Shown here piece by piece: positions 6,840-64,000 of a stretch of 64,000 nucleotides of DNA. The notes beneath the pieces are model-generated. The model was not told the DNA's origin. It worked only from the letters and a program-made list of their open reading frames with translations, and ran no database searches. The stretch lies in assembly GCA_964036045.1 (NCBI GenBank), contig OZ038382.1, positions 127,844,556 to 127,908,555 on the forward strand, in the 5' to 3' direction. The DNA is from Eutreptiella sp. 'Long Island Sound 2002' (taxonomy: Eukaryota > Euglenozoa > Euglenophyceae > Eutreptiales > Eutreptiaceae). The position numbers and the translations under genes were made by a program. Position 1 is the first letter of the stretch, and the number at the start of each line of letters is the position of its first letter.

Positions 6840-6901
6840 CAAGGGGGAACGTTAGCGCGCCGGGCGCGCGCCGGGCGCGCGCCGTGCATCTTTTGTGACC
6901 C

Positions 6902-7213: not shown

Positions 7214-7234
7214 GGCAGAGGATGAGGCAGAAGT

Positions 7235-7540
7235 GTGTGTGTTGTGTTGCCAGATCGCTCCACCGTTGCAGTTTGTGATGAGTGCAAGGAGCACTATTGT
7301 ACTGAATGTACTGACACCCACACTTGTGGGACCAATGTTATGATGCAGCTCTACTGTTCGCGATACCTCAATAACGCCCATCGCTTCTACTGGAGATCGA
7401 TGCGGGTGTGCTATCCTAACCCCCCATTCTCCCAACTTGCTAAGGTGTTGACCAAGATCGCCCTTAAAGGAGCGAGAGTGGTACTGTGTACCCCAGTTTG
7501 CAACTTTCTTGAGCTGGGGCAGTTTGGTTGGGTCACCTAA
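7235..7540 (+). pseudogene. Cys-rich plus methyltransferase-like fragment carried by transposon
   Basis: Residues 14-31 contain five cysteines (C14, C17, C22, C25, C31), suggesting a broken zinc-binding module. Residues 37-88 match, almost position by position, the segment between protease and RT in element 2: LYCS, FYW, then NP(P)F-S-L-KVLTK, then VLC.P. The motif NPPF (62-65) is the catalytic motif IV type of N6-adenine/N4-cytosine methyltransferases. A DNA transposon has therefore picked up a retroelement fragment, or the two share an ancestor. No start codon or full domain is evident, so I treat it as a non-functional capture. Confidence 0.55.
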
Positions 7541-9158: not shown

Positions 9159-11083
9159 GGGGGGCACTGATACAAGGGTGTGTGCTGCCAGCTTTTATTG
9201 TCCACATGCCCAGACCATGCATGTTGGTGGAAGACTTTGGGCAGAACACAGGGGGTGGAAGAGTCATGGCAATGATTGGATTTGGGTCAAAGATGGGACA
9301 CCATATGATGGTAGTGTGTTTCAGGGGATGCTGTAGCGGCAGGAGCCTTCCACTAACAAATCGGCAGGTACCGACATGAGACATAGGCACCAACCCCTAC
9401 CCATAGATTGACACTACAAGTATTTCCCCAGACAGGGGTTGCGGTAGTGTATGCCACCCACCCCTTCCTGTCCACCCTAGTGGTAAAGAATGAGACGTTG
9501 CTTGTCTCTGTCTAGGCACCACTAGGTGGTGGGACAGTGCTGTTTAAGGTGTTTTCCTCTCCTTGCCTTGGTATCGTATGCTAACCGCTGTGGAACAGAG
9601 AGGCAAAGATTTTGGAAATGTCCTCTCTGCTCAACGTCAGGTGCCATTTACAGCGGTGCTGTGCAGTGGATTTGCTGACGGCGCTCTGCAGCACCTCTTT
9701 GTAGGCTGACTGGTGCAGAGAAAGTCTGTTGAGCTTTGTTTGTGCTTTCTTCATCATCATTGGCTTTGTTTGATCCCTCCCACCCTATATTGCACATCTA
9801 ACCATCTGCAAACAAAACTCAGAAGCTCTGAGTGCCTTTATTTTTCTCATGTGAGGTTGACTCTGCATGCCTTGTTCACCGTCCATCATTTCGATTCTAC
9901 TGCTGGATGCTCTTGAAGCATTTGCCTCAGAAACAACATGGCCAATTCTGGGGGCATGGTAAATAAGCTGAAGGGAGTGGTGCTGGTGCTCAGTATGAGC
10001 CTTACTTACGCCTGGTTGGATTTGTACTATGGGACCTTGTTTTCAGAACCAATATGTGAGAGGGGCTCAGGGTATCTTTCTTCACCCTTGGACACCTTTT
10101 GCTGCACATTAAAAAAGGAAATCACTGCGTTTCTTCAAGTGACAGTCCCCCCCCCCCCCCCCCCCGTGCCCAAGAACCGCCTAATGGCTGAAAGTGTCTA
10201 TGGCGGGGACATTCAGTCTATCAGTACCGACCATTGCTCCCAAGAACCGCCTTGCGCAAGAACCGCTCCCTGGTTCCGCGGTCGAATTCTCGCACCACTT
10301 TTTTTTTACCACCGTGTTGGGTTTTTCATGGTTCTGGTGGATGCAGGACAGCTATTCAGGTGTGCACGACGACATTTCATGTGTTGTGTTGCTGCGGGTC
10401 CCCCCATCAGGGGGGACCCTATCAGTCAGTCACAGGTGCACATACCCCTTAAGCCCCTCCCCACTGCTCTCGACCCCTTCCCCGAAGCAACCAGCCCCTG
10501 ACAAGGAAACAAACAAAAGTCAGTTAAACACAGAGGGCCACTGATAGCACCACTTTGCAATTTTTTTTTTCATTTTTGGCAAACCATCCTTTCCTAGTTG
10601 AACAGGTGCTGTCTGATGGCTGGGTGCCTGGGCAGGTTTAGGCAGGTTTCACCTTCTTGCCCTACTGGGTGGGAGGAGAGGACACCCAGGCACTCAAGGG
10701 GAATTCAGGAATTCAGGATGGTGTATCGCAGGAAGAAGGGTTTCATGTCCGAACCAGTTCAACATTAGATCATTCCATGCACATTGGAAGGCACACTACA
10801 GCCCAGTCAGCTGAGATTCACTCCTTTGGTGTTCATTTGTCAATGTGGTTAATTGTGGGAAAGGAGAGGCTGCGCATACGCTGGCGCAACGCGCCGGAAA
10901 TTTTTTTTTTTCCGCGGTACGGGGCTGCCCACAGCCATGCGCAAGAACCAACCCCTGGTTCCGCGGTTGAATTTTGGGGGAAAAGTGTGCGCAAGAATCG
11001 CCCCCTGGTTCCGCGGTCAAACAGTGCTGGTTCTTGGGGGAACGTTAGCGCGCCGGGCGCGCGCCGGGCATCTTTTGTGACCC

Positions 11084-11395
11084 GTGCCCTACCGGTGGAC
11101 TGTAGCCGTTGATATGTTGGGCAACATTATATGGATTTGCCCCTTGGCCCCCGGGACATCAGCAGATGTTTTTATTTGGGATGGGTATGGACTTTCTCGT
11201 ACCCGAGGTGATTTCTTTGATTTCGAAGTTGGGGGCCATGATGGTGCTTATAAAGGCCAGATTCATGTCATTGTGCCATTCATTGGAAGAAAGAATGGCA
11301 CTTTGACATCCCGCCAACAATGTTACAATGACGTGCACGGGTGGTATAGGGCACACATTAAGCAGCTGTTTGCTCGGTTGTGGCACGCAAGATGA
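11084..11395 (+). pseudogene. Harbinger-like DDE transposase fragment, Glu lost
   Basis: This 103-residue frame is homologous to the one at 6902-7213. The first two acidic positions are kept (D10 and D53). The presumed catalytic Glu93 is Lys here (YRAHIKQLF), caused by one G-to-A change. This copy cannot encode an active DDE catalytic site even if it were full length. It is truncated in the same way as copy 1. Confidence 0.6.
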
Positions 11396-11416
11396 GGCAG
11401 AGGATGAGGCAAAAGT

Positions 11417-11776
11417 GTGTGTGTTGTGTTGCCAGATCGCTCCACCGTTGCAGTTTGTGATGAGTGCAAGGAGCACTATTGTACTGAATGTACTGACACC
11501 TACACTTGTGGGACCAATGTTATGATGCAGCTCTACTGTTCGCAATATTTCAATAACGCCCATCGCTTCTACTGGAGATCGATGCGGTTGTGCTATCCTA
11601 ACCCCCCATTCTCCCAACTTGGTAAGGTGTTGACCAAGATCGCCCTTAAAGGAGCGAGAGTGGTACTGTGTACCCCAGTTTGCAACTTTCTTGAGCTGGG
11701 GCAGTTTGGGTCACCTAATTCTAAGGGCGCTTCCAAGGGGTGTGCTTGGGGGCTCTTCAGGGGGAACATAGTCTAA
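11417..11776 (+). pseudogene. Methyltransferase-like fragment in transposon copy 2
   Basis: This is a second copy of the Cys-rich plus NPPF segment described at 7235-7540, with the same LYCS, FYW and NPPFSQLGKVLTK landmarks. 'GKVLTK' here is closer to element 2 than the 'AKVLTK' of copy 1, so this copy may hold the older sequence. The frame runs on into the transposon's right end and has no plausible independent start. Confidence 0.5.
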
Positions 11777-11807
11777 AAGTAGCGCGCCGGGCAACCATTC
11801 CCCCCTT

Positions 11808-23511: not shown

Positions 23512-23516
23512 CAGTG
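23512..23516. repeat. Target-site duplication CAGTG (left)
   Basis: CAGTG directly before the TG of the left LTR; repeated at 34293-34297 directly after the CA of the right LTR. Confidence 0.9.
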
Positions 23517-24048
23517 TGTAAGTGCGGCTAGCCCCATCTGCTCAGATTTTCAGACATTCTGTCCAGATTGGCTACATTTTGGTCATTTTCTCTGCTTCGG
23601 CGGAATCGTCGCCTCGCAGCTCAGTCTCAGGATCAGACCTATATATTTCTGATATGCCGGATCTGATTCCGCGGTCCATTCTCCGTAAATCCGCCGCGTT
23701 CCGATCATTTGCCTGCAATCGCCATTTGCCGCTGGCGCGCGCTCGCGGGCCAGATCGGCCAAATATTTTTCATAATCGGATTTATATAAATCTTTTCAGA
23801 TAGTTTTGGACACTCAGATGTATTTAGAATAATCCGCATCAATTTTCTTCTTAGACTGGGATTTTCTGCCGGATAACACTCAACATGGATCTTGCTTCCG
23901 TTGTTGCTGCTCTCGCCTCCGTTGGTGTTCGAGTCTCCGGTTCTACCCCCAATAGCAGCGTTCAGGTCGACTCCTCGCGTGCCTGCCCCACTGGTCTTGC
24001 CGGCCCCGAGCCCTCCGGCACCATCAACGACCCAGGGCAGCACTTTCA
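23517..24048 (+). repeat. Element 1 5' LTR, 532 bp
   Basis: It begins TGTAAGTGCGGC and ends AGCACTTTCA, the canonical TG...CA. By eye it differs from the right LTR at only three positions (near 23,688, 23,716 and 23,735), so insertion was recent. It contains a TATA-like TTTATATAAAT at about 23,780, placing transcription start near 23,815. The first in-frame ATG of gag (23885) lies inside it. Confidence 0.9.
23779..23790 (+). promoter_or_regulatory. TATA-like box in element 1 LTR
   Basis: TTTATATAAAT sits about 100 bp upstream of the gag ATG within the LTR and is repeated at the same place in the right LTR. It is a reasonable RNA polymerase II core promoter for the element. Confidence 0.5.
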
Positions 24049-25711
24049 TGGTAGCAGAGGCTACCTGAATGTTGTTCCTTTGGTGTCCCAACCACAGCTA
24101 GCTCCCCAGTACGGCCCCGTAGACTCCGCCGCTCCTGGAGAAGTAACGATTACGTTGCCCTGGTGCTGTGCGAACGAGGCCTTGAGAGGAATGCCTTGCG
24201 CAAGCCCAAGCTGCCCAAGAAGGGCACAAATCAGCAGCTGTGGAGGCCCAGATTATCATCAAGATCCCAGTCGAAATTGGCCATCAAGTAGCTGGAATCT
24301 GCCAGCCTACGCCGATGGCAACGCTCCGGTGGAGCTTACGGACCTGGCAGGTACCAATACTCCCTACCAATGTCCACATTTTGAGACCATCGACGCCGAC
24401 ATTGACGACATTGAGATGGGTGGTCCAGGTGAGGTACCTACCTATAATCGACCAGCCTCTTGGGCACAATGGGACAACCATTTGTCTTCAGAAGTGACCC
24501 GTAACCTTGAGGCGCTTGAGGCCCTTTGTCTATTAGCCACGTCTAAGCTGATAGGACAAGAAAGATTCGCCTCTGATTTTTTAATGGAATATTTTTTCCT
24601 ACTTCAGGAAGAAATTAATACCAGGATGTGGTGGCGTTCTCAAGAAGATGACTCTTTTGCCATTTTTTTGCAGATCTGAGAGGCAAGCCCCTTCCCGAAG
24701 GAGAAGACCAAGGCACCTGTTGCCGGGCCCTCCGCCTCTCATCCCCCTGTTTCCATCCGCGACGATCTAGCCGCCGCGGTTGAGGAAGGAATTTTAGAGG
24801 CAGCCAGGCAGGCAAGCCTGGAAATTAGGGCTGAAGGAGCTCCCCAGGTGGACTCCTGGCTGCGGACCACTGAGATTAGCGGTCTGACAGCCTGCTCAGG
24901 CCCTTCAGGACACGGTATGTACTGTCCTGCCGACTGCTCTTGCAGATTCCAGCGAGACTCTGAGCTCCAATTGCTCAAAGATCAAATGCAACTCATCATT
25001 CAAACGCTGGGAATAAAAGATCTTTTCAAGACGCACATGCGATCTGAGGGCGCATCATCGGTTGAACAAACAACAGAACCGTCGGAGGAGGCGACAGAAA
25101 TTTTTTCAATTGCTCCTTCGGTGGACTCCAAGACCACCGATGCAAGGATCAGCAGGACCAAGCTAAAGGAAAGGGTTACAATCTCTCGATCTCAGAGTAG
25201 GACGGCGAAGGCTAGGACTGAGGCTCAGAATGCCAAGCGAACTGCCTCCCGTACTGCCCCTCCTGCTGCTGATTCTAATGCATTAGCCCAGCTGTTGCTC
25301 GCCCAGACCCTCGCCGGAGCTGGTGTGGCGAATGATGCCGCCAAGGTGTCTGCCATTACGGCCGGTGTTGGGCTGGATTCGCTTCTTAATCCTACTTCAT
25401 TGCGACTTCGTCAGGTTGCCAAGCAACCGAAGTATAATGGGAACCCCAGACGTTGGCCTCAGTTCCAACGGGAATTTAAACTGTGGGTTAAGACTCAAAA
25501 ACTCCAGGATGATCAGTTCCTGATGGCTCTCTTGGACTGCCTTGAGGGAGCGCCGGCCAACACTTGGCTCAGGACCTGGAGTGATCGTGAGGATTCAAGT
25601 TCCCCCCTTACCTTTGATGAGGTGTGGGAACAGTTGGAGGTACGTGGATCCCGGCTGCCAGAGGACCATTACCACCAGATGTTGAAGAATTTTCCTTCAT
25701 TCTCGCGATGA
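23885..25711 (+). pseudogene. Element 1 Gag, N-terminal part
   Basis: The frame opens at ATG 23885 inside the LTR, passes through the primer binding site and continues to 25711, with in-frame TGA at 24677 and 25709. After a low-complexity start there is a capsid-like region at about 25,413-25,700 (KQPKYNGNPRRWPQFQREF, then DCLEGAPANTWL). It fits the retrotransposon Gag pattern 'f.g....w..f..dl' and 'L.G.A..w'. Gag would form the cytoplasmic particle that packages element RNA. The same frame continues beyond the second TGA, so both stops look like substitutions in an originally continuous gene, or recoded codons. Confidence 0.65.
24049..24060 (+). promoter_or_regulatory. Element 1 primer binding site
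   Basis: TGGTAGCAGAGG follows the LTR without a gap. It differs at two positions from TGGTATCAGAGC, the site complementary to initiator methionine tRNA used by many LTR elements. Confidence 0.7.
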
Positions 25712-26920
25712 ATCTTGCACGAAGTGCAAGACAAGAGACAGCGCTTCTGGAATTTAGTGGACGAATCTGAACATTCAGGCGAAAAATTTTCTAGTGCCGA
25801 GCTGAAAAGTCTGATTTTTGACAAGATCCCCTCAGAAACCGCCGCCACCCTTCGGAACAAACAGTCCGAAGAAAAGGTCAAGACCTGGTGGGCGGAGGTC
25901 GAAGGCTTCGATGCCTTGGCCAACAGGTTTTCCGTCAGGGAAGCACTTCAAAAGTGTTCCCCCACGTCGTTTACCAAGGTGAAATTCACTGAAAACACGT
26001 GGAAAATCAAGTTTAATGAACACGAGGATCGGGACTTGTTTGTCCAAGTCCTCAACAGGGGAGTAAGTTTCCACGGCCATCGCCTGAAGGCCAAGAACTG
26101 GGTGTTTTCGTTCACCCCGCAGGAACTCTGGGAAGAGGTTGAGCGGCTCGCTGACGCCGCCAATCAAAATTTCCATGAGGGTCTTGGGGGAAACAAGAAT
26201 ACCCAGCAAAACACCCAAAATGGGGCCCAAAAGGGCAACAAAAAAGTGAATGACACCCGGAATGTTCAGGATCACTGTAGCATCTGCCTTCTTTTAGGTT
26301 CTGCGAACCGAGCTAAGTCGCATTCTACTGGTAATCACCGATGGTCTCCTTACGATCACAAGGTGATTGGTGAAAATATCAGTAATCCGCAGAATTCAGA
26401 CAGGAATGACAGACAGGTGCATGGTGGAAAGGGGGGAAAAGGGAATTCGACCCCCTCCGGTGGAAACAAAAATCCCGGAGGTCCTGGCGGGTCCCAAGGC
26501 ACAGGAAATCGGACTCCATCCGGCTCCGGTGGGCAGCCGAACGGCCAGAAAAATCCCAATGGCAACGCCGGAGGCGGAAATCGAAATCCAGGCCAAACCC
26601 CTCAATCCGGTACAAACAAAGGAAATGCTCCAGGATCACAGGGTAAAGGTAAGGGAAATCCTTCAGGAACCCCTTTCTCTGGTAAGGGCAGAGGGCGTGG
26701 CGACGGTGGTGGTCCATCATCCGGCGGCCGTGGCCGTGGACGTGGAAAGGGCAACCATCGTGTGGATCAGGTCTCAGGTGCAGATCAGGTGTCCGATGCG
26801 GATCGAGATTACGTTGAAAATGCCTTGAATCCAGCAGATGATCCGTTCCAGGATGAGTGGGTCGACGAATCAGGGTGTGTTCACAATGTTAACGCAGCCA
26901 CTGGAGGTCAGAACGCCTAG
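25712..26920 (+). pseudogene. Element 1 Gag, C-terminal nucleocapsid part
   Basis: This continues the Gag frame after the TGA at 25709. It contains a capsid-like C-terminal stretch and an unusual Cys/His cluster (C188-x2-C191-x11-H203-x4-H208, counted from 25715) instead of the usual C-x2-C-x4-H-x4-C knuckle. About 100 residues of Gly/Asn/Pro/Lys-rich sequence follow (GGRGRGRGKGNH near the end), expected to bind nucleic acid. It ends at an in-frame TAG (26918-26920); the next 43 codons are open into the Pol frame. Gag and Pol are thus in one frame, separated only by TAG. Confidence 0.6.
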
Positions 26921-29900
26921 GGGAGCCACGAAAATCTTCCCTCCCCAGGAGATTTCAGGCATGATCCCCAGATTCCTGATCGACCATTACTTGATGTAGG
27001 GTCGCTTGTCTCCTCTCCCCTGGATCCGGCAGCGGATCCTTCTGTTGTAGTGGACGAGGTTGGTGTACAGTCCAAGCACAGGGCCCGTCAGTTTGTCACA
27101 AAGCTGTGGGTCTCTGATTGCAAGGGAAATTTCCACCTCGCCACTTGTTTGTGTGACAATGGATCAGAGGTAAATCTCCAATCCAATTCGTTCTTACCCG
27201 ACGACTGCGTGTTTGAGTCGCCTCATCCTGTTACCCTCGAGGGAGTTTCTGGACATTCTCTCGCAGGTGGGCAACGCGGTTGTTATATATCAACTCATTT
27301 GGTCGCTCAAGACCTTTGGGAAGAAGGTAATGTGGAGGAAGTTGTCCTTAAGGATGACTACTTCTATCGTGCCGACATAAAGTATGACCTTTACTTGGGC
27401 CATCCTTGGCTTCGCAAGAACAGGGTGGCGCCCGCAGGTCATCGGCGTTGTTTTTTGCTGGAGTCAGGTCCCTTGGAGCGTCCTGAATTTCGTTTTTTGC
27501 ACGCAGGGTTTAAAAGTGCAGAAGAATTTTTGAAGCAAAAAGTTACACCAAAATTTGGCGAAGATGTCACCATTGCAGAGGTGAATGGGAGTGCCGATTA
27601 CTCCCGAGAGTTACAATGTCTTCGTAGGGACTCCCAGCCACGACGCCCTTCGCGCTGGCACTCTTCATCCTACAGAGTTGTCGACAAATGGCGCGATGCA
27701 ATTTGTGAATATTTTCATGAACACCATTCCTTTTGGCCACAGTATGATGCCTTTGCTAACCGTAAGAACAAGCGCTTTGACAAGCACTTTAGCGACGCTT
27801 GGACCCATGAATGGGACAAGAAGTTGTGGATTAATCCTCCGTTTCACTTAATCCAGCAGGTCATCCACAAAATCAAGCAAGATAAAACCCAGGCAATTTT
27901 AGTTGTGCCCTTGTGGGACGACAAGCCTTGGTTTCAGGAATTACAAGACATTTGTGTAGATTACATCGAACTTCCCAGGAAGATTAAGCTGTACGCCAGG
28001 GACGACACAGGTCCCCTGCCACAGCGGTCCTGGAGTTCGCTTGCATTCCTGGTGGATGGAAAGCTTTCTGACTCTAATTCTGCTGATTCTAGTACAGATT
28101 CCTGTGTTGGGTCTGAATCTGAGGTTGAGCGTGGTACTGATGATGAATCTATTTTTTCTGATTTTTGTCCGTCAGATACCCAAGGGGATCCAACGTCAAA
28201 TGAATCCGCCTCGTCTCCCTCTTCCCCAATACGATCGACATCGAAAAGAATCTTCAGTGCACGGGCGAAGAAAAATCTTAAATCGCGCCGCAAATTCAGA
28301 GTTTTTTATGAAAAACCCCCTGTGGAAGCTTTCATAGATCCTTTCGAGGAGCTGGATCACGAAGATAATCTCTGGAATGTCGACACTCGACCCACCTCTC
28401 TTCAAGAGGCAGTTGATACGGACCTCTTTAGGGACATCCGTAAGAAGATTCTTCCTGCCAAGGCCGAAGAAGTCGCCAAAGTTTTTTCGACAGTAATTCC
28501 TGGCGATCAGGTGGACACTGAATTGTGTTCCAAGGCAAGAGAAAAGATTTTTGAGGAACGGAAGGACACAACCCTTTCGGGGAAGTTGATCAAAGACCCC
28601 CCTGTCCGTGGGCAGTTCGGTGAAGCCTTCATCGAGCTTCGTGAAGGTTACAAGGCGAAGAAACAGCGTCCTTATGAGAACCATGGACATAAACATGAGA
28701 TCCTCAGAAAAATCATCGAGAGAAATCTCAGGGAATTTGGTTGGCTTGAGGGTTGTATGACCAGCGAATGGTGCTGTGCACCCTTCACAGTCCCGAAGCC
28801 GCCGCCTGCAGACCAGAACACTATTGATGGTTGGCGAATGGTTGTTGATTTTCGCAATCTCAACGCCGAAACCAAGGTGGATTCGCACCCCCTGCCCCTC
28901 ATTGAGGAGGAAATCGCCAAGAGGGCAAGAGGTCGTTTGTTTTCTGTGCTGGATCTCCGTCACGGCTTTCACCAAATGCCGTTGAGGAAGGACAGCCGAC
29001 CTCTCACTTGTATGTGCACGCCATGTGGCCCAGTCCAGTGGACAGTCATGCCCATGGGCCTGAAGAACGCCCCTTCGTTTTTTCAAAGAATGATGGAGGA
29101 TGTGCTTTTTACAGCCCATCCTGAGCTTCGTGCCTTTGTGAGTGTGTACATAGATGACATAATCATCGCGACGGAGGGGGAGGGACTGACCGAAGCCGAG
29201 CTGGTGGCCCTACATGAAAAGCAGCTGAACCAAGTTTTGGACATTCTTGATGCTAATCAGCTGATTTGTGGGCCAAAGAAGGGAAAATTATTTTTAAAAT
29301 CAGTCGAATTTTGTGGTTCTCTCCTAGAGAATGGCACCCGACGACCCAGTCCAGGGAAGCTCGTCGCTATTCAGAAGTGGAAGCGCCCGGAGACGATCAC
29401 GGAGTTGAGAGGATTCCTGGGTTGTTGCAATTTTTACCACACTTTTGTGCCGAATTATGCCAAATTTGCTGCCCCCCTCACTGAATTATTGAAGGTAGGG
29501 AGAGATGCAGGCAAGGCAGGTTCAAAGGTTCGTGTCAAGTGGACTGACGAGTGCGAGGAGGCCTTCCATCACTTGAAGGCGGCCCTCTGTGAAGTCGCCA
29601 CGTTGCATGTGCCCCAATTTGACCGACCCTTCTACATTAGAACCGACGCTTCTAGGTACGCGATCGGAGCTGTCCTTGAACATGTTGATGAAGCCACCGG
29701 CGATCATTACCCTCTTGCATTTTGGTCTCGGAAGCTAGCCCCACGCCAAATGCAATGGTCGCCGCGTGAGCAAGAAACATATGCCATAATCTGTGCGCTG
29801 AAAAAGTACCAATCGTGGGTTGGCACCAATCGAGTCGAGGTCCTGACGGATCATCGATCTCTGGAGTATTGGGCCACCGAACACATTGATACTGTCGCGA

Positions 29901-30544
29901 GCCCAGCTGGTCGACGGGCCAGATGGCACGAATTTCTCAGTCTGTTTGACCTCCATGTGTCGTATTTGCCTGGAAAACACAACACGGTAGCGGATGCTCT
30001 GAGCCGATGGGCTTACCCCGCTTCAGAGGGGCTGCAAAGTACCAACATCCATGGTACGGAGCAGGACCGCCATGTAATAATCGAATGGGATCAAGAAGAA
30101 AAGAAACTCATTCGACGTGCATGCATGCAATGCGCTGTTAAACAGCACGCATTACCGTGCCATGACATCACGGCCATCTCAGATCCGGCGCATGCTCATG
30201 AGATCTGCACCAAAACACTGAAAGTCGTGGAAAAAGTCACCGATCCCTCCTCAGGGAGTGTGAAACGGTTTGACTATACCCGACGAGTAAGTCGATTTCG
30301 GTTGATCCAGGGCATTAAGCGTCGAGATCCGGCGAAAACTCCACCCCTGCCGAAAGATTCCCTGATCATCCGTGACTGGACGTCCGATTACCTGCAGGAT
30401 CCCATGTTTAAAGAGGTCTTTGGAAATCTCAAATCCAAAGATGCTCACAAGGATGGGATTTTTTCTGAGTACTCGTTGGATGGGGGGAAACTGTGGATGG
30501 AGGGTAAATTGTGCGTACCAGACGCCCTGGCCCCCCGAGTGTGA
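26921..30544 (+). CDS. Element 1 Pol: protease, MTase-like, RT, RNase H
   Basis: The frame continues from Gag; residues below count from codon 27050. Protease-like: CDNGSEVNL, Asp36, with D-N-G in place of D-S/T-G. Methyltransferase-like: ~215-330, with YDAFANRKN (D233), LWINPPFHLIQQV (NPPF 262-265) and ILVVPLWDDKPWF. Then an acidic Ser-rich linker. RT: ~560-760, with LFSVLDLRHGFHQMPL, PMGLKNAPSFFQ and YIDD (700-703). RNase H: ~860-985, with YIRTDASRYAIGAVL, SPREQETYAI and LPGKHNTVADALSRW. The order PR-RT-RNaseH-IN is Ty3/gypsy. The methyltransferase-like insertion is unexpected. The frame ends at TGA 30542, in frame with the integrase. Confidence 0.85.
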   Translation, partial: GSHENLPSPGDFRHDPQIPDRPLLDVGSLVSSPLDPAADPSVVVDEVGVQSKHRARQFVTKLWVSDCKGNFHLATCLCDNGSEVNLQSNSFLPDDCVFESPHPVTLEGVSGHSLAGGQRGCYISTHLVAQDLWEEGNVEEVVLKDDYFYRADIKYDLYLGHPWLRKNRVAPAGHRRCFLLESGPLERPEFRFLHAGFKSAEEFLKQKVTPKFGEDVTIAEVNGSADYSRELQCLRRDSQPRRPSRWHSSSYRVVDKWRDAICEYFHEHHSFWPQYDAFANRKNKRFDKHFSDAWTHEWDKKLWINPPFHLIQQVIHKIKQDKTQAILVVPLWDDKPWFQELQDICVDYIELPRKIKLYARDDTGPLPQRSWSSLAFLVDGKLSDSNSADSSTDSCVGSESEVERGTDDESIFSDFCPSDTQGDPTSNESASSPSSPIRSTSKRIFSARAKKNLKSRRKFRVFYEKPPVEAFIDPFEELDHEDNLWNVDTRPTSLQEAVDTDLFRDIRKKILPAKAEEVAKVFSTVIPGDQVDTELCSKAREKIFEERKDTTLSGKLIKDPPVRGQFGEAFIELREGYKAKKQRPYENHGHKHEILRKIIERNLREFGWLEGCMTSEWCCAPFTVPKPPPADQNTIDGWRMVVDFRNLNAETKVDSHPLPLIEEEIAKRARGRLFSVLDLRHGFHQMPLRKDSRPLTCMCTPCGPVQWTVMPMGLKNAPSFFQRMMEDVLFTAHPELRAFVSVYIDDIIIATEGEGLTEAELVALHEKQLNQVLDILDANQLICGPKKGKLFLKSVEFCGSLLENGTRRPSPGKLVAIQKWKRPETITELRGFLGCCNFYHTFVPNYAKFAAPLTELLKVGRDAGKAGSKVRVKWTDECEEAFHHLKAALCEVATLHVPQFDRPFYIRTDASRYAIGAVLEHVDEATGDHYPLAFWSRKLAPRQMQWSPREQETYAIICALKKYQSWVGTNRVEVLTDHRSLEYWATEHIDTVASPAGRRARWHEFLSLFDLHVSYLPGKHNTVADALSRWAYPASEGLQSTNIHGTEQDRHVIIEWDQEEKKLIRRACMQCAVKQHALPCHDITAISDPAHAHEICTKTLKVVEKVTDPSSGSVKRFDYTRRVSRFRLIQGIKRRDPAKTPPLPKDSLIIRDWTSDYLQDPMFKEVFGNLKSKDAHKDGIFSEYSLDGGKLWMEGKLCVPDALAPRV

Positions 30545-32152
30545 AACTGGTGGCATAAATGGGAGTCCCCTCACGCACATGGCCGTCGACTGTGGTCGAT
30601 GATTAAACATAGGTTGTTTGGCTCACGGCTATATACTCACTGCATGAAAGTAGCCGCCGGATGTGCCCAATGTGCTGTCTCGACGCCCCCCAGCGCGAAG
30701 AAGCACGGCCATCTGAGGCCTCATCCTATTCCGGAGCGCCTCTTTAACAGAGTCACCAGTGATTTTTTCTTTCTCGGTGAACTCGATGACGAAGAGTGCC
30801 ATTGGACCAATAAAAAGGTCAATGGTGTGCTCCTTATTCAGTGCCGTCATTCCGGCTACATTCAAGTGTTGCCTTGCAACATTGAGTCGATGACTGGCAA
30901 GGCTGCCGCCAAATGGTGCGCGCAGACCTGGATGGGAGGTTGGGACGTCCCATCCGAGGTGGTTACGGACTCAGGCAAAGAGTACACCTCCGAATGGTGG
31001 AGGGAATTATGTGCTCGCCTTGGAATCCACCACCTGCGATGTGAAATCCACTCGCATCGAGCGCTGCCTGGTGAAAGAGCCGGCCGCTCAATTATAAATA
31101 TGCTTCGTAAGGAGCTCGCGAGTGAAAATTATTTCCATTGGATGGAAGTTCTCTTCGCATTGCTTCGCCGGTACCACAACACGCCTTTGTACCATGGCCT
31201 TTCTCCAAATGAAATTGTCTTTGGACGAAAGAAGTGTTGGTGGAACATGCCGTTGAATAATCCTCGCCCTTGTAAAGATGCTTCGTTGTTTTTGGACGAC
31301 GTCCAACGAGCAGATAAAACTGTCTCTAAATTAATCGATAAGCATCAAGCTGACTGGCTTTGGGTTCAGAATCAAGGCCGAAAAAACCCCCAAAATTTTG
31401 AAGTCGATGATCGAGTCTGGCTTCGAAAATCCGAAACCACCCTGGACGGAGATGATAAGCTTCTTCCCTTGTGGGAGGGGCCATTCGCTGTTACAGCGCG
31501 TCTTGGTGAGAACAGGTGGAGGATTCGTGTGGATGTCAGCAGGAAAATTGACGTTTCGGGCGATCGCCTCAAGAGAGAGATCCCCTCCCCCAAGGATCGG
31601 GTTAAACCCCTTTTTTGGACTTCGAAAATTTTGTCCGATCGGGTCATCGAAGGGGAAAAGTACGAACTCAAGAATATTTGAAAAGCAAGACGTGACGGAA
31701 AGGGCGAATGGGAATTTCTATGTGAGTGCAGGGGCTTTGATTCCAGTCACAACAACTGGAAACCAGCCCATTCTTTTGTCCATGGGTACACCAAGGGGTT
31801 CATCGACCTCCTCAAGAAGCACCCCGAAATTGGCGTACTCCTGACAGACTGTCTGTCGAAACCAGACAGACAAGTGGAGAGCGACGGAAAAAGACCTGTG
31901 GTGAATCGAGATCCAGCCTTTTACGGCCCTCAGCAGCCACATTCCAGGGCTGATCCGTCGATCCCCCCTCCTGCGGTCAGGCCAGCCCAGGAGCCAAATG
32001 AAGACCAAGCTTCAAGTTCGGCCGCTGATTTGCAGCGCCCAAGCCGTACGAGGGCCCGACCAGACAGGTTGGTGGTCACATGTATTCGTGCGTGGCCGAC
32101 TTCAGCCTCGCCCCAACCACATTCTGCTCAATCCACTGTTCATTCTTCCTGA
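30545..32152 (+). pseudogene. Element 1 integrase with chromodomain-like end
   Basis: This is the same frame as Pol, resuming after TGA 30542. The HHCC zinc module spans the stop region (NWWHKWESPHAHG, then CAQC). The core has SDFFFLGE, VVTDSGKEYTSEWW and LPGERAGRSIINMLRKE, giving a complete D, D, E set. A C-terminal barrel follows (DRVWLRKSE, LPLWEGPFAV). Near 31,640-31,800 a chromodomain-like stretch (EGEKYELKNI, stop, KARRDGKGEWEFLCECRGF, then NWKPAHSF) is broken by TGA at 31679. The frame then stays open through a Pro/Ser/Ala-rich tail to 32152. No frameshift is present. Confidence 0.75.
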
Positions 32153-33750: not shown

Positions 33751-33760
33751 GGAGGGGGAG
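33751..33760 (+). promoter_or_regulatory. Element 1 polypurine tract
   Basis: GGAGGGGGAG preceded by a T run lies directly before the right LTR, as required for plus-strand DNA priming. Confidence 0.85.
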
Positions 33761-34292
33761 TGTAAGTGCGGCTAGCCCCATCTGCTCAGATTTTCAGACA
33801 TTCTGTCCAGATTGGCTACATTTTGGTCATTTTCTCTGCTTCGGCGGAATCGTCGCCTCGCAGCTCAGTCTCAGGATCAGACCTATATATTTCTGATATG
33901 CCGGATCTGATTCCGCGGTCCATTCTCCGTAAGTCCGCCGCGTTCCGATCATTTGCCTGGAATCGCCATTTGCCGCTGACGCGCGCTCGCGGGCCAGATC
34001 GGCCAAATATTTTTCATAATCGGATTTATATAAATCTTTTCAGATAGTTTTGGACACTCAGATGTATTTAGAATAATCCGCATCAATTTTCTTCTTAGAC
34101 TGGGATTTTCTGCCGGATAACACTCAACATGGATCTTGCTTCCGTTGTTGCTGCTCTCGCCTCCGTTGGTGTTCGAGTCTCCGGTTCTACCCCCAATAGC
34201 AGCGTTCAGGTCGACTCCTCGCGTGCCTGCCCCACTGGTCTTGCCGGCCCCGAGCCCTCCGGCACCATCAACGACCCAGGGCAGCACTTTCA
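33761..34292 (+). repeat. Element 1 3' LTR, 532 bp
   Basis: It has the same length and ends (TGTAAG...TTTCA) as the left LTR, with three visible differences. The gag ATG is repeated at 34129, where it reads out into the flank for 85 codons. Confidence 0.9.
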
Positions 34293-34297
34293 CAGTG
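34293..34297. repeat. Target-site duplication CAGTG (right)
   Basis: Matches 23512-23516 and fixes the element 1 insertion point within the RNase H region of element 2. Confidence 0.9.
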
Positions 34298-35314
34298 TAG
34301 CTGTGCTTGAGAGTTCCGTCTCGGTTGAGACCTTCGGGCCCCCATTAGGAAATTGCCGAGTCGAACTCCTCCTATTCTGGTGCTAGCCATTGGAACAACG
34401 TTCCACCACCGCCAACATTGCTGGCGTCAGTCACCAGGATAATTCCCCCTTGTGCTCTAGGCACGCCCAAGCACTTAGCGTTGGCCAGCTTGTCTTTGAG
34501 CTCGTCAAACGCTTGTTGCTCTTTTGGGCCCCAGTGCCAAGTAGTACTCTTCTTGATCAGGTTTGTCAGCATGGCGCTGGTGTAAGTGAAGTTTTTGATA
34601 TGGCGGTGATAGAAGTTGCACGCCCCAATGAAACTGCGTACATCATGGAGTCCTTTCTGGGGGTCTTCATGTCGTACCTCAGCGTCCATCAGGGGTTCGG
34701 CCTTAGAGGCCGCTGGGGTCCACCACCCATAGCCAACGTCAAACCCCAGGTACTGCATGGTCTCCTGCATGAACTCACACTTCTCCAGCTTGAGTCGTTT
34801 GTTGTTCTCCTGGCAGACCGCAAAGAACTCACCCAAGAGGATTAGGTGATCCTCCTGGGTATTGGTCCGGAGGCATACATCGTCGATGTGCGCCTCCATC
34901 TGGGCCCCACGGGATATGAGTTCTTGCACCTTCGGTCTTCGTCGTAGGATGGACAAGATCTTGTTCATCAGCTTTTTTTGCACTGAACGGCGCCTTTTGT
35001 GGCTGGCCAGGCCAGATCTTGTTCATCAGCTCTTGGAAAACAGCGGGCGCGTTGGCCACGCCAAACGGCATCACCTTCCACTTGAACACCCTCCCCTGAG
35101 AGGTGAAGAAGGCTAGTAGCTCCTGAGCGTTGGGCGTCAGGTCCACCTGCCAGAATCCGCTCCTCTTGTCCATCTTGGTCTTGTAGCGACAGAAGGCTAT
35201 CTTCTCAAGTGTAGACTCCATATTAGGAATGGATCCTGAGTGGTTCAGCGCTTTCTTGTTCAGCTCTCCGTAGTCCACTACCAGCCGTTTGGCTGTAGAC
35301 CCAGGTTTAGCCAC
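34298..35314 (-). pseudogene. Element 2 reverse transcriptase (minus-strand copy)
   Basis: Two minus-strand frames together give an RT. 34829-35314 has KRLVVDYGELNKKALNHSG, KMDKRSGFWQVDLTP and VMPFGVANAPAVFQ. 34372-34983 has AHIDDVCL, a thumb (QYLGFDVGYGW), the connection SFIGACNFYHRHI and the start of RNase H (LVTDASNVGGGGTLF). The catalytic box is HIDD, not YxDD, in both copies of this element. The frames are separated by a 58-bp insertion at 34,974-35,031 comprising a short A-tailed insert and an 18-bp duplication. The gene is cut at 34,297 by element 1. Confidence 0.8.
34956..35031 (-). mobile_element. 40-bp A-tailed micro-insert with 18-bp duplication
   Basis: AGATCTTGTTCATCAGCT occurs at 34956-34973 and 35014-35031, but only once in the plus-strand copy. 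Between them are 40 bp that, on the minus strand, end in a short A run. A long target duplication plus A tail is the signature of LINE-machinery retroposition. Confidence 0.6.
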
Positions 35315-37301
35315 CAGGAGACAGGGGCTGCAGTGTTGGGGATAGTCCCCGTCCCTATACTCCAGGACTAGGCCAGCGTCGATACTCTCTTGTATCTATC
35401 GCTCAATCTCGTCGGCCTGCTCTTTAGGAGTGGGATAGGGTCTCCTCCGGATCTGATGGCCCGCGAACTCGGGTTTCAGCTTGAGGTCCATCTGTACCAG
35501 CTTGTCACATGAGGCTCGGGGTGGTACTTCCCCGAACACCTCCAGATAGGTCCTTAAAACCTTCTGTACCCGCGGGTCCAATAGCTTGATCTTGTCCTCC
35601 ATGTCCTCGTCGGAGTGTAGGTTGCTTGCCCCCTGAGTAATAGACGTCGGGAGGTGATCCTCCACCGACTCTTCGCCCTTGGTAGTATCCTTCAACCCTT
35701 GGTAGGCATAAAGTAGGTCTCGTTCAACCATCTCCGGTGGACAATGGCAACATAGGCACGCTCGAGGGGGTTCACATACACATTCCTCCGAGAGGTCGTC
35801 CTCCTCTGGGGTCCTCACATGGGCAGCCCACACGCTCTTCATGAGCTTAAGATCTACCTCCTATTGCCAGGTGGTGATCTTCTGTTCGAGGTCTTCCTTC
35901 AATTGGGATAGATCTCCCATACGTCCTTGCTTCAGTGGCCATGAGCTGCGGGTAGGCTTAGCGTAGCATAGCTTTTTTGCCACCAACCTCCTCTTGGAGT
36001 CCACGTACTCTCTTAGCCTGGATGGGGGATCCAGCTCCTCGTCCACGGGGTCTTCCACCCTCATAGAGAGTAGGGGTTTCAGTGGGGCGATGTACTCGGC
36101 GTCCTCCACTTCCTCCACACATGTCTGCACGAAGAAGGCGTCATGCTCCGTTTCATCATCTGAGTGGATAGAGCTGGGGAGCTCGGATAGTCCACACTCA
36201 GAGACTCCATCGGGAACAGGTACTTGGCATGGAGAGTTGGGAGCATTGGTGTTAGCAACGACGTGTTCATCTCCCCCGGGTATAGTCTCAATAGCATCTT
36301 GAGGTCGTAGTCGATCTTTCAAGTTGCCCAGGGTAAGTCCATCGCTTTCTCATTGCATAGCCTGGACCAGAGTCGAGTCCAGGTCCTCCTAGGGAATGAA
36401 GATAAGACCTCCGTCCAACACGCTGAGCATACTTCCCCATCTGGGTTTCCTGATGGGCCTCTTACGCCCCAGAGGCACGTATATGGCCTCATGAGGTAAC
36501 CGAACAGAGCTGATAGTCAGTCTGTCCAGGAGGGTTCGCCAGTACTCGTTGCCCCCATGGGCTCCCCAATCGGGGGAACACAGGACCATACGGGAACGTT
36601 CCAGGGCCACCTTGGTCAAGAATCTCCAGTTCACTGAACCTGGGGTTCCCGTAGGCCATCTTGAAAGAGGGCCAGTAAAATTTGTCGCTGCAGTTTTTCC
36701 CCTTGCTGCAGTAAAGGTCCAAGACATGTTGCTTGTCGCTGGCGAACAACTCCACACTCAGGTCTTCTCTGGAGTAACCCAACTCCTTCAGACCTTGGTC
36801 TAGGACTTCCCCCAATAGTTGATAGTCCTCCGTTTTGGAGGCCGCCATCATGTTCGAGGGCTCCTCCTTCGATACCCTCAGGTAGCTCGAGGTGTGCTCC
36901 GACTGCTCCAGTGGCACGGAGTCTCTGCCGTTGCCGTGGTCCACGTAGAGGAGGTAGGGCGCTTGCAGCGTCAGGGATTGTATCTGGGAGTGCTGCACGA
37001 AGAAGTCAGTCCCCAATACAAAGTCGAAGGCCTCAGTGTCGATCACATAGAATCAATGGGCGATAGTTCGGGAGCCCATTGGTACCTCCACTTCACAGTC
37101 CCCGCAGCTGTGCACCACATGTCCATCCCCCATGCGTATAGCCGCGGTGCTCATGGTGTTTTTCAGGCTCCCACAAGGTAAAGTTTTCTTGGCCACTACA
37201 GATATGGTGGCTCCAGTATCCAACACCCCCAGGTATTCACGTCCCCCTAGTCGGATACGTACCCAGAACACCAGGTCCAGGACCCCACCGGAGCGTCCCC
37301 G
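35315..37301 (-). pseudogene. Element 2 protease, MTase-like and linker (minus-strand copy)
   Basis: Starting right after the TGA at 37302-37304, the frame has the aspartic protease core GVLDTGATISVVAK (37,053-37,271). An in-frame TGA follows where the plus copy has CGG, then VLGTDFFVQHSQ. Next is the methyltransferase-like segment (VELFASDKQHVLDLYCSKGK, then AYGNPRFSEL). A frameshift near 36,630 follows, then acidic linkers (35861-36322 and 35396-35842) leading to RT at IRRRPYPTPKEQADEIE. Several stops and frameshifts make this copy inactive, while the plus-strand copy preserves the frame. Confidence 0.75.
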
Positions 37302-38593
37302 TCAGAACTCAGCGGGACAGGTCACCTCAAACCCCTTGTTCCGCAATTTGCGGGCCATCCTCATGCAACGGCTTCTCTTCTTAGCGCTGCTGTCATCACC
37401 ACCTTCATGCTCACGTTTGGCCCCTTGTTCTTGCTGGCCCTGACTTTGGGAGCGTGTGGTAGGACCAGACAGCCCTCCAGAGGGCTCGGAGTCCCCCCCT
37501 GGATTAGGGTTGGGGCTGCCTCCGTTCTTGTCCGGGTTCTTGTTGTCCTTGTCTGGCTGGAGGTTAGCGCCTCCTCCTCGTCCACCTTGCCTCTTGTCTT
37601 GTCCTTTTCCACGTCCTTTCGACTTGCCCTTGCCGGAGTCGTTGCCGTTGCCCTTGTCAACGCCCTTGCTGAGCCTTTGCCAGGATCCTCGCCCTTCAGC
37701 TTCGACGACAGCCGCTGCTTGTGGTAGCACTCATCCTCGTAGTGCTTCCTCCTCCCACAGAAGGCACAGGTGATAGTACACCTGTAGTGAACCGGCATCT
37801 TAGCCTTGGCGCCGGTGTTGGTCTCCTGCTTCTTCCCTTGCACTACGAAGCAGTCTCGCTGCTCGCAGTTAGGGGCGTGCTGCAGGTGGCCATGCCCCTC
37901 TCTGGCGTCACACCAGAAGAGCTTCTTGACGTTGTCCATGATACGGGCGTGCTTGGGGGTAGTCCCCTGTCCAGGTCTAGGTCCTCTGTACCCTTTGCCA
38001 TGGCTTCCAGAGCCTCTTCCTCCAGGACGGTAGGCGTTCAGGTGCTGGTCGCTTTCTTTCTCCAGCGCCAGCTGCAAGAGTAGCACAGACAAATCCTCGT
38101 AGTTGAGGACTCTAGCCTTGCACTCTGCCGTTGACCGGCACTCGTCCCACAGCTCCCGAGGGAGCTGAGCCACCAGCCAGAAAAGCAGGTCGTCGCTGCT
38201 GTAGGAACCGGGCGTGAATCATCCAGCCGCGTGATCCAGGTCAGCCAGTAGCTCAGAGACCCTGGCAGGTTTTTGGTTTTTGGGCAGCACGGCCAGGTTC
38301 TGGATCTCGGCCCTGATGGAGGGGTCGGTTTGGTAGGTAGGGTACTGCCTCTCCTAGGCAACCAACACGTCGGCAAAGGTGGCGGACTTAGTCACGATCT
38401 GCTTGAACTCCTTCTCCAGGTACTTGGTCTTGCAGCACTGCAGGAGCAGATCACACTTGACTCGCCCACTAGCATGCGCTTGGCCGGTCATTCGGAGGAA
38501 CCGGCCAAAATTTTCAGCAAACTTGCTGAGATCCTAGCCTGTGGACTCAGACAGGTTCACCACGATCTTCAAGGTGGCAATGGCCTCAGCCTC
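37302..38593 (-). pseudogene. Element 2 Gag capsid and zinc knuckle (minus-strand copy)
   Basis: The minus-strand sequence matches the Gag at 60028-61290. It keeps the zinc knuckle CAFCGRRKHYEDEC (C-x2-C-x4-H-x4-C) and the Lys/Gly-rich tail (GKGKSKGRGKGQDKRQGG). At least three in-frame stops have arisen, including AAG-to-TAG and CGA-to-TGA relative to the other copy, plus a frameshift near 37,680. The 3' end (EVTCPAEF, then TGA CGG) is identical in arrangement to the plus copy. Confidence 0.8.
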
Positions 38594-39763
38594 CTAAGAC
38601 CTGCGTCCCTCAGGGCGCCTGGTCTTCCTCTTCTTCTTCTTCTTCCGCCAACTCAAGTTCTCGGGGTCCTCAGGGTCTTCGTCCTCCGAGGGCGAAGCAG
38701 AAGTCATGGACGGCGGCTCATTGTCAGAGGGGTCTCCGCCTAGGTCACTAGAGCCATAGGGCTCCACGTCAACCATTGCCCTTAGGGCTGTCAGCCCCAA
38801 CCGGTCCAGCTCGGCTCTCGTGGAATTCGGGACGTGGCTGTAGGGAGGCTGGGCCGTTCTTGGTATGAAAGGGCTTCTTGGTATCACAGCAGGAGTCGGC
38901 ATCGGTCGGCTCCTCAGGCTCCCCAGGGTGTTTGTCAACCCTGCCACCAGGTGGTTGGCCTGTACTCGGTGGGGTGAAACTCCCACGATGGTAAGGGACG
39001 CTTGGGGTGGAATCAGGGGCTCCAGTTTAGCCCGAATCTCTTGAGTGAGATCACCAACAATTTTAGAGGTGGCTCCTCGGAGTGCCTCGTTGATCTCCGA
39101 CCGCGTCAGGGACCTGTTGGAGGATCTCCCCGATCCTCTACTCCTGCTCCCGCATGACTCAGGGCCTCTCCTCAGCCCACTCAGGGTTGCATACCCAGGA
39201 ACATCCACATAGACTCCAGTAGCATGTAAAGAATGGTGATAGTCTGCCGCGTACCAGTGCGGCGCAGAACTAGAGGCCACTGGCTCACCGGCGGTAGTTG
39301 CCTTTGGAAACGCAGTGGTAGATGGGTCCACACCATAGGCAGCGTAGGTAGGCATACCAGTAAAGCCTGTGCCCTCAGCCATAGGCAGGGTGGTTATGGG
39401 TGTGGATGTTGCAGCGGCTGGGTCTGGAGTTGGGAGTGTGGTGGTTGTAGGAGAGGGTGATGCGTAGAGGCCAGAGGCGCTTGGCGTGCCCTCGAAGGTC
39501 GACTCACTCGTTGGGTCGTGCTCATGGTCTACTCCTTCGTCTGCCATGCTTTCTCCTGCATTGTTCTCTCTCTCCCGCTTTCTCTTCACAGGGTCCGTGT
39601 CCACCTCCTCGACTGAGAGGGCCCGGAAGGCCGCCTGAAGTCCCTCCAGCGAGTCATCAACCACGTCCACTGGCCCATGTAAGGGCAGGAAAGGTATAGC
39701 GCTAGGTCCAGGTCCAGGTTCACCAGGTGGTGGCATTGCTGGTGCCTCAGGCGCCATCCTCAC
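38594..39763 (-). pseudogene. Element 2 Gag N-terminal region (minus-strand copy)
   Basis: The 389-residue frame is Pro/Ser/Thr-rich with basic and acidic patches (VKRKRERENN, SEDEDPEDPE) and a Lys/Arg run near its end. It matches 58810-59973. The ATG used by the plus copy is CTG here, so the first ATG is 11 codons downstream. The stop at 38594 is CAG-to-TAG relative to the plus copy, so the frame originally ran into the capsid region. I recognise no domain; by position it is Gag. Confidence 0.65.
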
Positions 39764-39883
39764 GTCGGTGTCCTCCTTCTTCGTGTCCAGATTCGCCCTT
39801 CTTGCTTATGACAGTACTCGGTGCACTGGATGTACGGCACGGGGTTGCTGCCGGTACGCAGAGACTGTCTGCCTCTGCTACCA
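39764..39883 (-). other. Element 2 leader and primer binding site
   Basis: On the minus strand TGGTAGCAGAGGCAG (39869-39883) directly follows the LTR. It is the same methionine-tRNA-like site as in element 1. About 105 bp of leader precede the Gag frame. Confidence 0.65.
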
Positions 39884-61290: not shown

Positions 61291-63102
61291 CGGGGACGCT
61301 CTGGTGGCACCCAAGACCTGGTGTTTTGGGTACGTTTCCGACTAGGGGGACGCGAATACCTGGGGGTATTGGACACGGGCGCCACCATATCTATAGTGGC
61401 CAAGAAAATTTTACCTTGTGGGAGCCTGAAGAACACTATGACCACCACTGCTATACGCATGGGGGATGGACATGTGGTGCACAGCTGCGGGGACTGTGAA
61501 GTGGAGGTACCTATGGGCTCCCGGACTATCGCCCATCGGTTCTAGGTGATGGACACTGAGGCCTTCGACTTTGTACTGGGTACTGACTTCTTCGTACAGC
61601 ACTCCCAGATACAATCCCTGACGCTGCAAGCGCCCTACCTCCTCTACGTGGACCACGGCAGTGGCAGAGAGTCTGTGCCACTGCAGCAGTCGGAACAGAC
61701 CTCGAGTTACCTGAGACTATCTAAGGAGGAGCCCTCGAACATGATGGCGGCCTCCAAAACTGAGGACTATCAACTATTGGGGGAAGTCCTAGACCAAGGT
61801 CTGAAGGAGTTGGGTTACTCTCGAGAAGACCTGAGTGTGGAGTTGTTCGCCAGCGACAAGCAGCATGTACTGGACCTATACTGCAGTAAGGGGAAGAACT
61901 GCAGCTACAAATTTTACTGGCCCTCTTTCGGGATGGCCTACGGGAACCCCAGGTTCAGTGAACTGGGGAAGGTGCTGACCAAGGTGGCCTTGGAACGTTC
62001 CCGTATGGTCCTGTGTTCCCCCGATTGGGGAGCCCATGGGGGCAACGAATACTGGCGAAACCTCCTGGACAGGCTGGCTATCAGCTCTGTTCGGTTACCT
62101 GATGAGGCCATCTACGTGCCTCTGGGTCGTAAGACGCCTATTGGGAAACCCGGATGGGGGAGTATGCTGAGCGTGGTGGACGGAGGTCTTACCTCCATCC
62201 CCTGGGAGGATCTGGACCCAACTCTGGTCCAGGCTATACAACGAGAAAGCGACGCACTCGCCTTGGGTGACTTGAAGGATCGCCTACGACCTCAAGATGC
62301 TGTTGAAACTACACCCGGAGGAGATGGGTACGTCGTGACTGACACCAACACACCCAACTTTCCCTGTCATGTACCTGTTCCCGATGGAGTCTCTGAGTGT
62401 GGACTATCTGAGCTACCTAGCTCTATCCCCTCAGATGACGAGACTGAGCACGACGCCTTCTTCGTGCAGACCTGTGTGGAGGAAGTGGAGAACGCCGAGT
62501 ACGTCGCCCCACTGAAACCCCTACTCTCCATGAGGGTGGAAGACCCCGTGGACGAGGAGCTGGACCCTCGATCCAGGCTCAGGGAGTATGTGGATTCCAA
62601 GAGGAAGTTGGTGGCGAAAAAGCTATGCTACGCGAAGCCTACCCGCAGCTCATGGCCACTGAAGCAAGGACGTATGGGAGACCTATCCCAATTGAAGGAG
62701 GACCTCGAACAGAAGATCACCACCTCGCAAAGGGAGGTAGATCTTGAGCTCATGAAGAGCGTGTGGGGCGCCCATGTGAGGACCCCAGAGGAGGACGACC
62801 TCTCGGAGGAATGTGTATGTGAACCCCCCCGAGCGTGCCTACGTTGCCATCGTCCACCGGAGATGGTTGAACAAGACCTTCTATATGCCTACCAAGGGCT
62901 GAAGGACACTACCACGGGCGAAGAGTCGGTGGAGGACCACCTCCCGACGTCTATTACTCAGGGGGCAAGCAACTTACACTCTGACGAGGACATGGAGGAC
63001 AAGATCAAGGTATTGGACCCGCGGGTACAGAAGCTTATAAGGACCTATCTGGAGGTGTTCGGAGAACTACCCCCTCCAGCCTCATGTGACAAGCTGGTAT
63101 AG
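61291..63102 (+). pseudogene. Element 2 protease, MTase-like and linker (plus-strand copy)
   Basis: In phase with Gag. Protease core GVLDTGATISIVAK (Asp at 61372), then a TAG at 61543 where the other copy has TAT. Next comes VLGTDFFVQHSQ. The methyltransferase-like segment lies at about 61,837-62,170 (VELFASDKQHVLDLYCSKGK, AYGNPRFSELGKVLTKVAL, MVLCSPDWG), with NPRF at 61945-61956 in place of NPPF. Long acidic linkers follow. A TAG at 63100 replaces the CAG of the other copy just before RT. There are no frameshifts over 1.8 kb. Confidence 0.75.
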
Positions 63103-64000
63103 ATGGACCTCAAGCTGAAACCCGAGTTCGTGGGTCACAAGATCCGGAGGAGACCCTATCCAGCTCCTAAAGAGCAGGCCGACGAGATCGAGCGACAGAT
63201 ACAAGAATGTATCAACGCTGGCCTAGTCCTGGAGTACAAGGACGGGGACTACCCCCTACACTGCAGCCCCTGTTTCCTGGTGGCTAAACCTGGGTCTACG
63301 GCCAAACGGCTGGTAGTGGACTACGGAGAGCTGAACAAGAAGACGCTGAACCACTCAGGGTTCATTCCCAATATGGAGTCTACCCTGGAGAAGATAGCCT
63401 CCTGCCGCTACAAGACCAAGATGGACAAGAGGAGCGGATTCTGGCAAGTGGACCTGACGCCCAACGCACAGGAACTACTGGCCTTCATCACCCCTCAGGG
63501 GAGGGTGTTCAAGTGGAAGGTCATGCCGTTTGGCGTGGCTAACGCACCCGCTCTATTCCAAGAGCTGATGAACAAGATCTTGTCCATCCTACGAAGGAGA
63601 CCTAAGGTGCAGGAGCTCATATCCCGTGGTGCCCAGATGGAGGCTCACATCGACGATGTATGCCTCGGTACCAATACCCAGGAGGATCACCTAATCCTCT
63701 TGGGTGAGTTCTTTGCGGTCTGCCAGGAGAACCACACACGACTCAAGCTGGAGAAGTGTGAGTTCATGCAGGAGACCATGCAGTACTTGGGGTTGTTAAC
63801 CACGCAACTGTTTGATGTTGGCTATGGGTGGTGGACCCCAGCGGCCTCTAAGGCCAAACCCCTGATGGATGCCAAGGTACGACACGAAGACCCCAAGAAA
63901 GGACTTCATGATGTACGCAGTTTCATTGGGGCGTGCAACTTCTATCGCCGCCACATCAAAAACTTCACCTACACCAGCGCCGTTCTGACGGACTTGATTA
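63103..64000 (+). CDS. Element 2 reverse transcriptase, cut by window edge
   Basis: Open in the same frame to the last base. RT motifs in order: RLVVDYGELNKKTLNHSG, KMDKRSGFWQVDLTP, VMPFGVANAPALFQ, the catalytic box HIDD at 63646-63657 (His instead of the near-invariant Tyr, as in the other copy), and SFIGACNFYRRHIKNF at the connection to RNase H. An 18-bp in-frame insertion near 63,793-63,812 is absent from the minus-strand copy. The enzyme would copy element RNA; RNase H and integrase lie beyond the window. Confidence 0.8.
   Translation, partial: MDLKLKPEFVGHKIRRRPYPAPKEQADEIERQIQECINAGLVLEYKDGDYPLHCSPCFLVAKPGSTAKRLVVDYGELNKKTLNHSGFIPNMESTLEKIASCRYKTKMDKRSGFWQVDLTPNAQELLAFITPQGRVFKWKVMPFGVANAPALFQELMNKILSILRRRPKVQELISRGAQMEAHIDDVCLGTNTQEDHLILLGEFFAVCQENHTRLKLEKCEFMQETMQYLGLLTTQLFDVGYGWWTPAASKAKPLMDAKVRHEDPKKGLHDVRSFIGACNFYRRHIKNFTYTSAVLTDLI

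Follow-up and report, generated by a model that had tools for sequence, protein, structure and literature searches.

A Dam-like methyltransferase domain ahead of the reverse transcriptase in a Ty3/gypsy retrotransposon of Eutreptiella

What does a Ty3/gypsy retrotransposon encode in its Pol frame ahead of the reverse transcriptase (RT)? The question is raised by element A, a 10.8-kb element on the forward strand of a 64,000-nucleotide stretch of the Eutreptiella sp. 'Long Island Sound 2002' genome (assembly GCA_964036045.1, contig OZ038382.1, positions 127,844,556 to 127,908,555), hereafter the window. A sequence-only reading of the window had proposed there a segment built like the phage Dam-like N6-adenine methyltransferases. 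We find by homology and predicted fold that the segment is a domain related to these enzymes, and that it is under long-term purifying selection between two anciently split subfamilies.

The methyltransferase (MT) domain covers about 140 residues at 27641..28060 (+), as located by Pfam, PHROG, hhalign and the predicted fold. It lies within the stop-free Pol frame of 1207 codons at 26921..30544 (+), which by the open reading frame (ORF) list and Pfam also holds the protease-like part, RT and RNase H. All three peptides of the earlier proposal stand in this frame, YDAFANRKN at 27743, LWINPPF at 27824 and ILVVPLWDD at 27896. The segment had been placed at 27690..28060; its end is kept but its start moves about 50 bases upstream. 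The catalytic-type motif NPPF, read from the translation at 27833..27844 (+), falls within the [DN]PP[YF] pattern.

The top Pfam match of the segment is PF05869 (Dam), at E 1.3e-4 for 214 amino acids and 8.7e-5 for 140, and PHROG 111 'DNA methyltransferase' matches it at E 2.5e-4. By hhalign, the domain aligns with nine T1-type Dams over 103 columns (probability 92.4, E 5.3e-7), and the shared columns include D..A, NPP and P..W. The window domain scores 22.7 bits against PF05869, below the curated cut-off of 28.1, so it is called Dam-like here, a distant relative and not a curated member.

The AlphaFold2 (AF2) model of the domain is confident (predicted local distance difference test, pLDDT, 92.1; predicted template modelling score, pTM, 0.88) and shows the class I methyltransferase fold, similar to that of phage Dam. 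Searching BFVD with this model gives 27 matches at E <= 1e-3, the best at 1e-7. The named top matches are phage DNA N-6-adenine methyltransferases, and the template modelling (TM) scores on the query are 0.65-0.77 in the top ten. Thus the kinship with the phage enzymes is borne out both by profile-profile comparison and by structure prediction.

The resemblance might still arise by chance in a protein that is no methyltransferase. That the window segment alone stays under the Pfam cut-off and has no match to TIGR01712 speaks for this. However, two profile libraries, the profile-profile comparison and the fold search all agree, and relatives do pass the cut-off, P0125 with 33.4 bits and the cut-out P0008 segment with 28.2 (the whole P0008 has 23.6). 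We consider a chance resemblance next to negligible, and a chance motif is rejected on the fold, profile and constraint evidence. Among further searches, a PDB sequence search and an Rfam scan gave no match, and an IMG/VR scan with the MT alignment gave one pattern match that was not confirmed.

The nearest solved fold is the catalytic core of the cap adenosine-N6 methyltransferase CAPAM/PCIF1, which presumably also carries NPPF. This enzyme differs in being a large cellular RNA enzyme, and MT has no Pfam or sequence-profile match to it. A rival explanation is that MT is itself an adenosine methyltransferase acting on RNA, namely the element mRNA, its cap or the particle's genomic RNA, rather than on DNA. 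We hold this to be unlikely.

Element A has the ends of a Ty3/gypsy element. Its two direct long terminal repeats (LTRs), the 5′ copy of 532 bp with TG...CA termini at 23517..24048 (+) and the 3′ copy at 33761..34292 (+), were delimited by BLAST of the two ends and by reading the termini. They differ at 3 positions over 533 aligned bp. The 5-bp target site duplication CAGTG flanks them at 23512..23516 and 34293..34297. Also read from the sequence are the primer binding site TGGTAGCAGAGG at 24049..24060 (+), which we take to be initiator-Met-tRNA-like, and the polypurine tract at 33751..33760 (+).

The coding parts downstream of MT follow the Ty3/gypsy order of RT, RNase H and integrase. RT lies at 28793..29317 (+; PF00078, E 2.7e-25) and RNase H at 29540..29944 (+; PF17919/PF17917). 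The integrase core lies past the stop ending at 30544, at 30842..31054 (+; PF00665), with an E-value of 8.6e-7 and 29.6 bits, slightly below the curated cut-off of 32.6. DIRS membership of the element is ruled out by the LTRs, the integrase and the place of MT, before RT and not after RNase H as in DIRS; no tyrosine recombinase (PF00589) was found in its scanned frames.

Upstream of MT, a protease-like stretch at 27149..27430 (+; LCDNGSEVNL ... YDLYLGHPWL) is recognized by motif only. We take its DNG and YDLYLGHPWL to be aspartic protease motifs. The Pfam scan gave no match to this part, and a structure prediction of it together with MT reached a pLDDT of 46, with the protease part poorly modelled. 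Hence, of the proposed place between protease and RT, the position before RT is firm while the protease is assigned by motif. The usual protease motif is DSG or DTG; here it reads DNG at 27149-27175, and the same DNGSEVN occurs in P0030, P0035 and P0065.

A gag-type frame with a putative extent of 24680..26920 (+) has no Pfam match and is broken by a stop that ends at 25711. At the other end, a stretch at 31661..31774 (+) aligned to the chromodomain of the relative P0004 is also interrupted by a stop. The ORFs end at 25711, 30544 and 31681, with gag and the integrase/chromodomain part broken, so the window copy, though young, is not intact. The sequence-only reading was right about a young element with an intact NPPF motif. 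In other genomic copies, the open frame that holds MT reaches up to 1757 codons.

The element had also been named a chromovirus. The chromodomain PF00385 scores above its cut-off in the close relatives P0002 and P0004, so element A appears to be a gypsy with chromodomain-bearing relatives, and the chromovirus label would be taken here solely from their chromodomain. Some algal gypsies with a chromodomain are not chromoviruses, according to the accessible part of PMC12477816.

Is the domain kept by selection? Subfamily I was sampled as 20 copies, the top 20 of 150 scored. The subfamily II sample has 48 rows, the top 30 of 150 and 18 picked for long open frames, from 45 distinct places as three rows are the same places entered twice. 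As most copies were ranked by their similarity in MT, the samples are tilted towards intact domains; the contrast between the subfamilies is expected to be little affected by this. For the bootstrap, half of the subfamily I copies (10 of 20) were compared, stretch by stretch, with those subfamily II rows that contain the stretch.

Between the subfamilies, the proportions of synonymous (pS) and nonsynonymous (pN) differences in MT are 0.82, near saturation, and 0.27. The resulting pN/pS is 0.33 (95% 0.24-0.44) for MT and 0.83 (95% 0.64-1.07) for the poorly conserved linker from MT to the pre-RT region at 28055..28330 (+), where the ratio is rough since the lower pS (0.58) may reflect patchy alignment. 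Elsewhere it is 0.25 in the protease-like part, 0.49 between this and MT, 0.34 in the pre-RT part and 0.16 in RT. Between the proteins P0001 and P0006, RT is 84% and RNase H 81% identical, against 55% for MT and 36% for the linker that follows MT. Thus the constraint on MT is about that on the protease-like and pre-RT parts, stronger than in the linkers and weaker than in RT.

The NPPF motif is retained in 65 of the 68 genomic rows (20/20 in subfamily I and 45/48 in subfamily II), and a stop falls inside MT in none of the 20 and 4 of the 48 rows, respectively. Among the best 150 of 26,741 subfamily I candidates, ranked by MT similarity, 148 have no stop in MT, and on this ground a frame artefact is rejected as its origin. 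For the 18 rows of subfamily II picked for long open frames, dN/dS is 0.45 in MT, 0.38 in RT, 0.69 in the linker and 0.61 in the protease-like part. Such weak constraint in every part is expected if the differences mostly arose after insertion.

A second gypsy lineage, here lineage B, was found by searching the six-frame translation of the window with the MT profile. Its frame at 61546..63102 (+; profile match E 6e-4) has a protease-like end, by motif, and an MT-like domain at 61759-62184 (+), directly before an RT at 63103..63999 (+; PF00078, E 5.9e-29) that runs to the window end. This RT is 27.7% identical to that of element A. A second, decayed copy at 34396..39793 (-) has a frameshifted MT-like part at about 36338-37046.

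The motif of lineage B is NPRF in all eight copies examined, two in the window and six fetched from the genome, so NPPF is not kept in every gypsy bearing MT. A missing methyltransferase fold or free variation of NPPF among family members would have told against the sequence-only reading; for the lineage of element A (lineage A) the fold is found and the motif does not vary freely. The six fetched copies differ from the window copy by 4-19 nucleotides but only 1-2 residues, a biased set because it was picked for high protein similarity. The lineage B query gives 26,302 candidates in the genome, and all 150 scored places, the most similar ones, are stop-free. These being near-identical in protein, lineage B looks recently mobile.

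The MT-like segment of lineage B has no Pfam match. Its profile, built with two NPPF fragments of the window, matches lineage A with probability 71 (E 3.7e-5) and phage Dam with probability 28 (E 6.3e-4). The latter match is weak, so the methyltransferase assignment is less certain for lineage B. The two fragments lie at 7226..7537 (+; MT profile E 1e-6, PF05869 E 0.01) and 11408..11773 (+; MT profile E 2e-7, PF05869 E 0.02). A 749-bp direct repeat, at 6866-7614 and 11048-11792 with 96.9% identity, houses both of them.

Lineage B bears on another rival, in which MT has been preserved for some task other than catalysis, for example as a module that helps Pol with folding, spacing or nucleic-acid binding. 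The constant NPRF and, in the biased set of six, the nearly unchanged residues fit such a role, as does the minimal size of MT, about 140 residues with no separate target-recognition domain. However, lineage A keeps NPPF and the D.F motif across its subfamilies despite the near-saturated synonymous sites. Moreover, long interspersed nuclear element (LINE)-type proteins share both motifs while being less than 30% identical to lineage A within MT, and some phage Dam-like proteins are just as compact, one of them having 130 residues and a TM score of 0.75 on the target. We rate the non-catalytic role, like action on RNA, as unlikely but as a genuine rival. The NPPF of lineage A and the NPRF of lineage B in one genome offer a natural comparison of a putatively catalytic and a possibly non-catalytic form.

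The LINE-type RT proteins are P0008 (1727 amino acids) and P0129 (1575 amino acids), from other sequence records, with the Dam-like domain near the N-terminus. Besides gypsies of at least two lineages with distinct RTs, LINE-type elements also carry an MT-type domain. P0103 and P0128 also show it near the N-terminus, RT being seen only in P0008 and P0129. All four proteins contain several peptides that we take to be 2A-like.

Proteins like P0001 and P0006 have MT and RT in a single frame. No RT was seen in the shorter MT-bearing pieces, namely P0125 and the P0057-like and P0040-like groups, so their gypsy origin is inferred. In the protein search, the cluster of P0003 has 964 members and that of P0004 4843. 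Queries with subfamilies I and II give 26,741 and 29,319 first-look candidates, respectively, in the genome of 2.28 Gb. These totals are unscored apart from 150 places per query, include places drawn by both queries, and should not be read as copy numbers.

Such high abundance would make it possible that MT acts in trans, methylating rival elements or the host genome and so affecting competitors or host chromatin. The location in Pol favours action on the element's own nucleic acid instead, and we rate action in trans as very unlikely. Away from these elements, three consecutive 193-codon frames at 54113-55876 (+), with a spacing of 591 bases, look like a tandem array. A spliced-leader-type motif has 1 match against 0.65 expected by chance.

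What would the domain do? Our proposal, to which as a whole chain we give an even chance, is that a gypsy lineage captured a minimal Dam-like MT and kept it in Pol before RT to methylate its own complementary DNA (cDNA). MT would be made as part of Gag-Pol and, lying inside Pol, be packed into the particle together with RT. There it would bind S-adenosylmethionine and methylate adenines of the newly made cDNA before integration, and new copies would enter the genome already adenine-marked. Its benefit may be either protection of the cDNA from nucleases or sensors, or a more permissive chromatin where the new copy lands.

As far as the accessible text of PMC12695648 goes, adenine methylation accompanies permissive chromatin in several unicellular eukaryotes, and this link makes a benefit of the mark plausible. 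De Mendoza et al. propose cDNA methylation by the cytosine enzymes in DIRS (PMC5890265, in the part available), a precedent by analogy that adenine marking of cDNA would fit. An LTR element with young copies that holds a conserved adenine-type MT at a constant position ahead of RT is a testable candidate for a self-marking mobile element.

A wider version is more tentative. An adenine MT before RT may be a standing part of the gypsies of this host group, its active form marking cDNA and the NPRF form of lineage B being repurposed. Thousands to tens of thousands of pre-marked elements would then have seeded the genome.

Among known systems, the adenine type of MT is on record in DIRS and the cytosine type in a few DIRS, LINE and gypsy elements. 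What appears new is a Dam-like MT in gypsy Pol, although an earlier mention is possible. As the sequence-only reading supposed, no account of it was found in the open-access literature, a scope outside which subscription papers and Repbase reports lie. The available part of PMC11673190 has MT among the domain abbreviations of an architecture figure.

The T1 Dam (AAP49979, AY216660) is collinear with MT and reads DAAA...N, NPPY and P...AWF. It is a stand-alone protein of 237 residues, and MT shares only the core. The accessory protein of Sola1-1_Ec32 in the alga Ectocarpus is likewise a transposon-borne methyltransferase, of N4C/N6A type and with its own element as the presumed target, but its gene belongs to a DNA transposon, includes a ParB-like domain and is outside any retroelement Pol (PMC12477816, accessible part).

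The cytosine methyltransferases in retrotransposons are those of KnitGypsy-Dnmt3, SymbioDIRS-Dnmt3 and SymbioLINE-Dnmt, in the available text of PMC5890265. KnitGypsy likewise has a captured DNA methyltransferase in its gypsy Pol, with Ka/Ks < 0.2. These enzymes are of the C5-cytosine type, however, and structurally unrelated to the Dam-like adenine enzymes (same source and extent).

In fungal tyrosine-recombinase elements, the MT is PF05869 and is reported in DIRS only, within the accessible portion of PMC3783388. The DIRS and element A domains are both of Dam-like adenine type and inside a retroelement Pol, and the same Pfam family detects both. DIRS elements have a tyrosine recombinase, lack protease and DDE integrase, and carry MT with RT and RNase H (PMC3783388, as accessible). 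Unlike them, element A has MT before RT, and has LTRs, an integrase and, in its relatives, a chromodomain.
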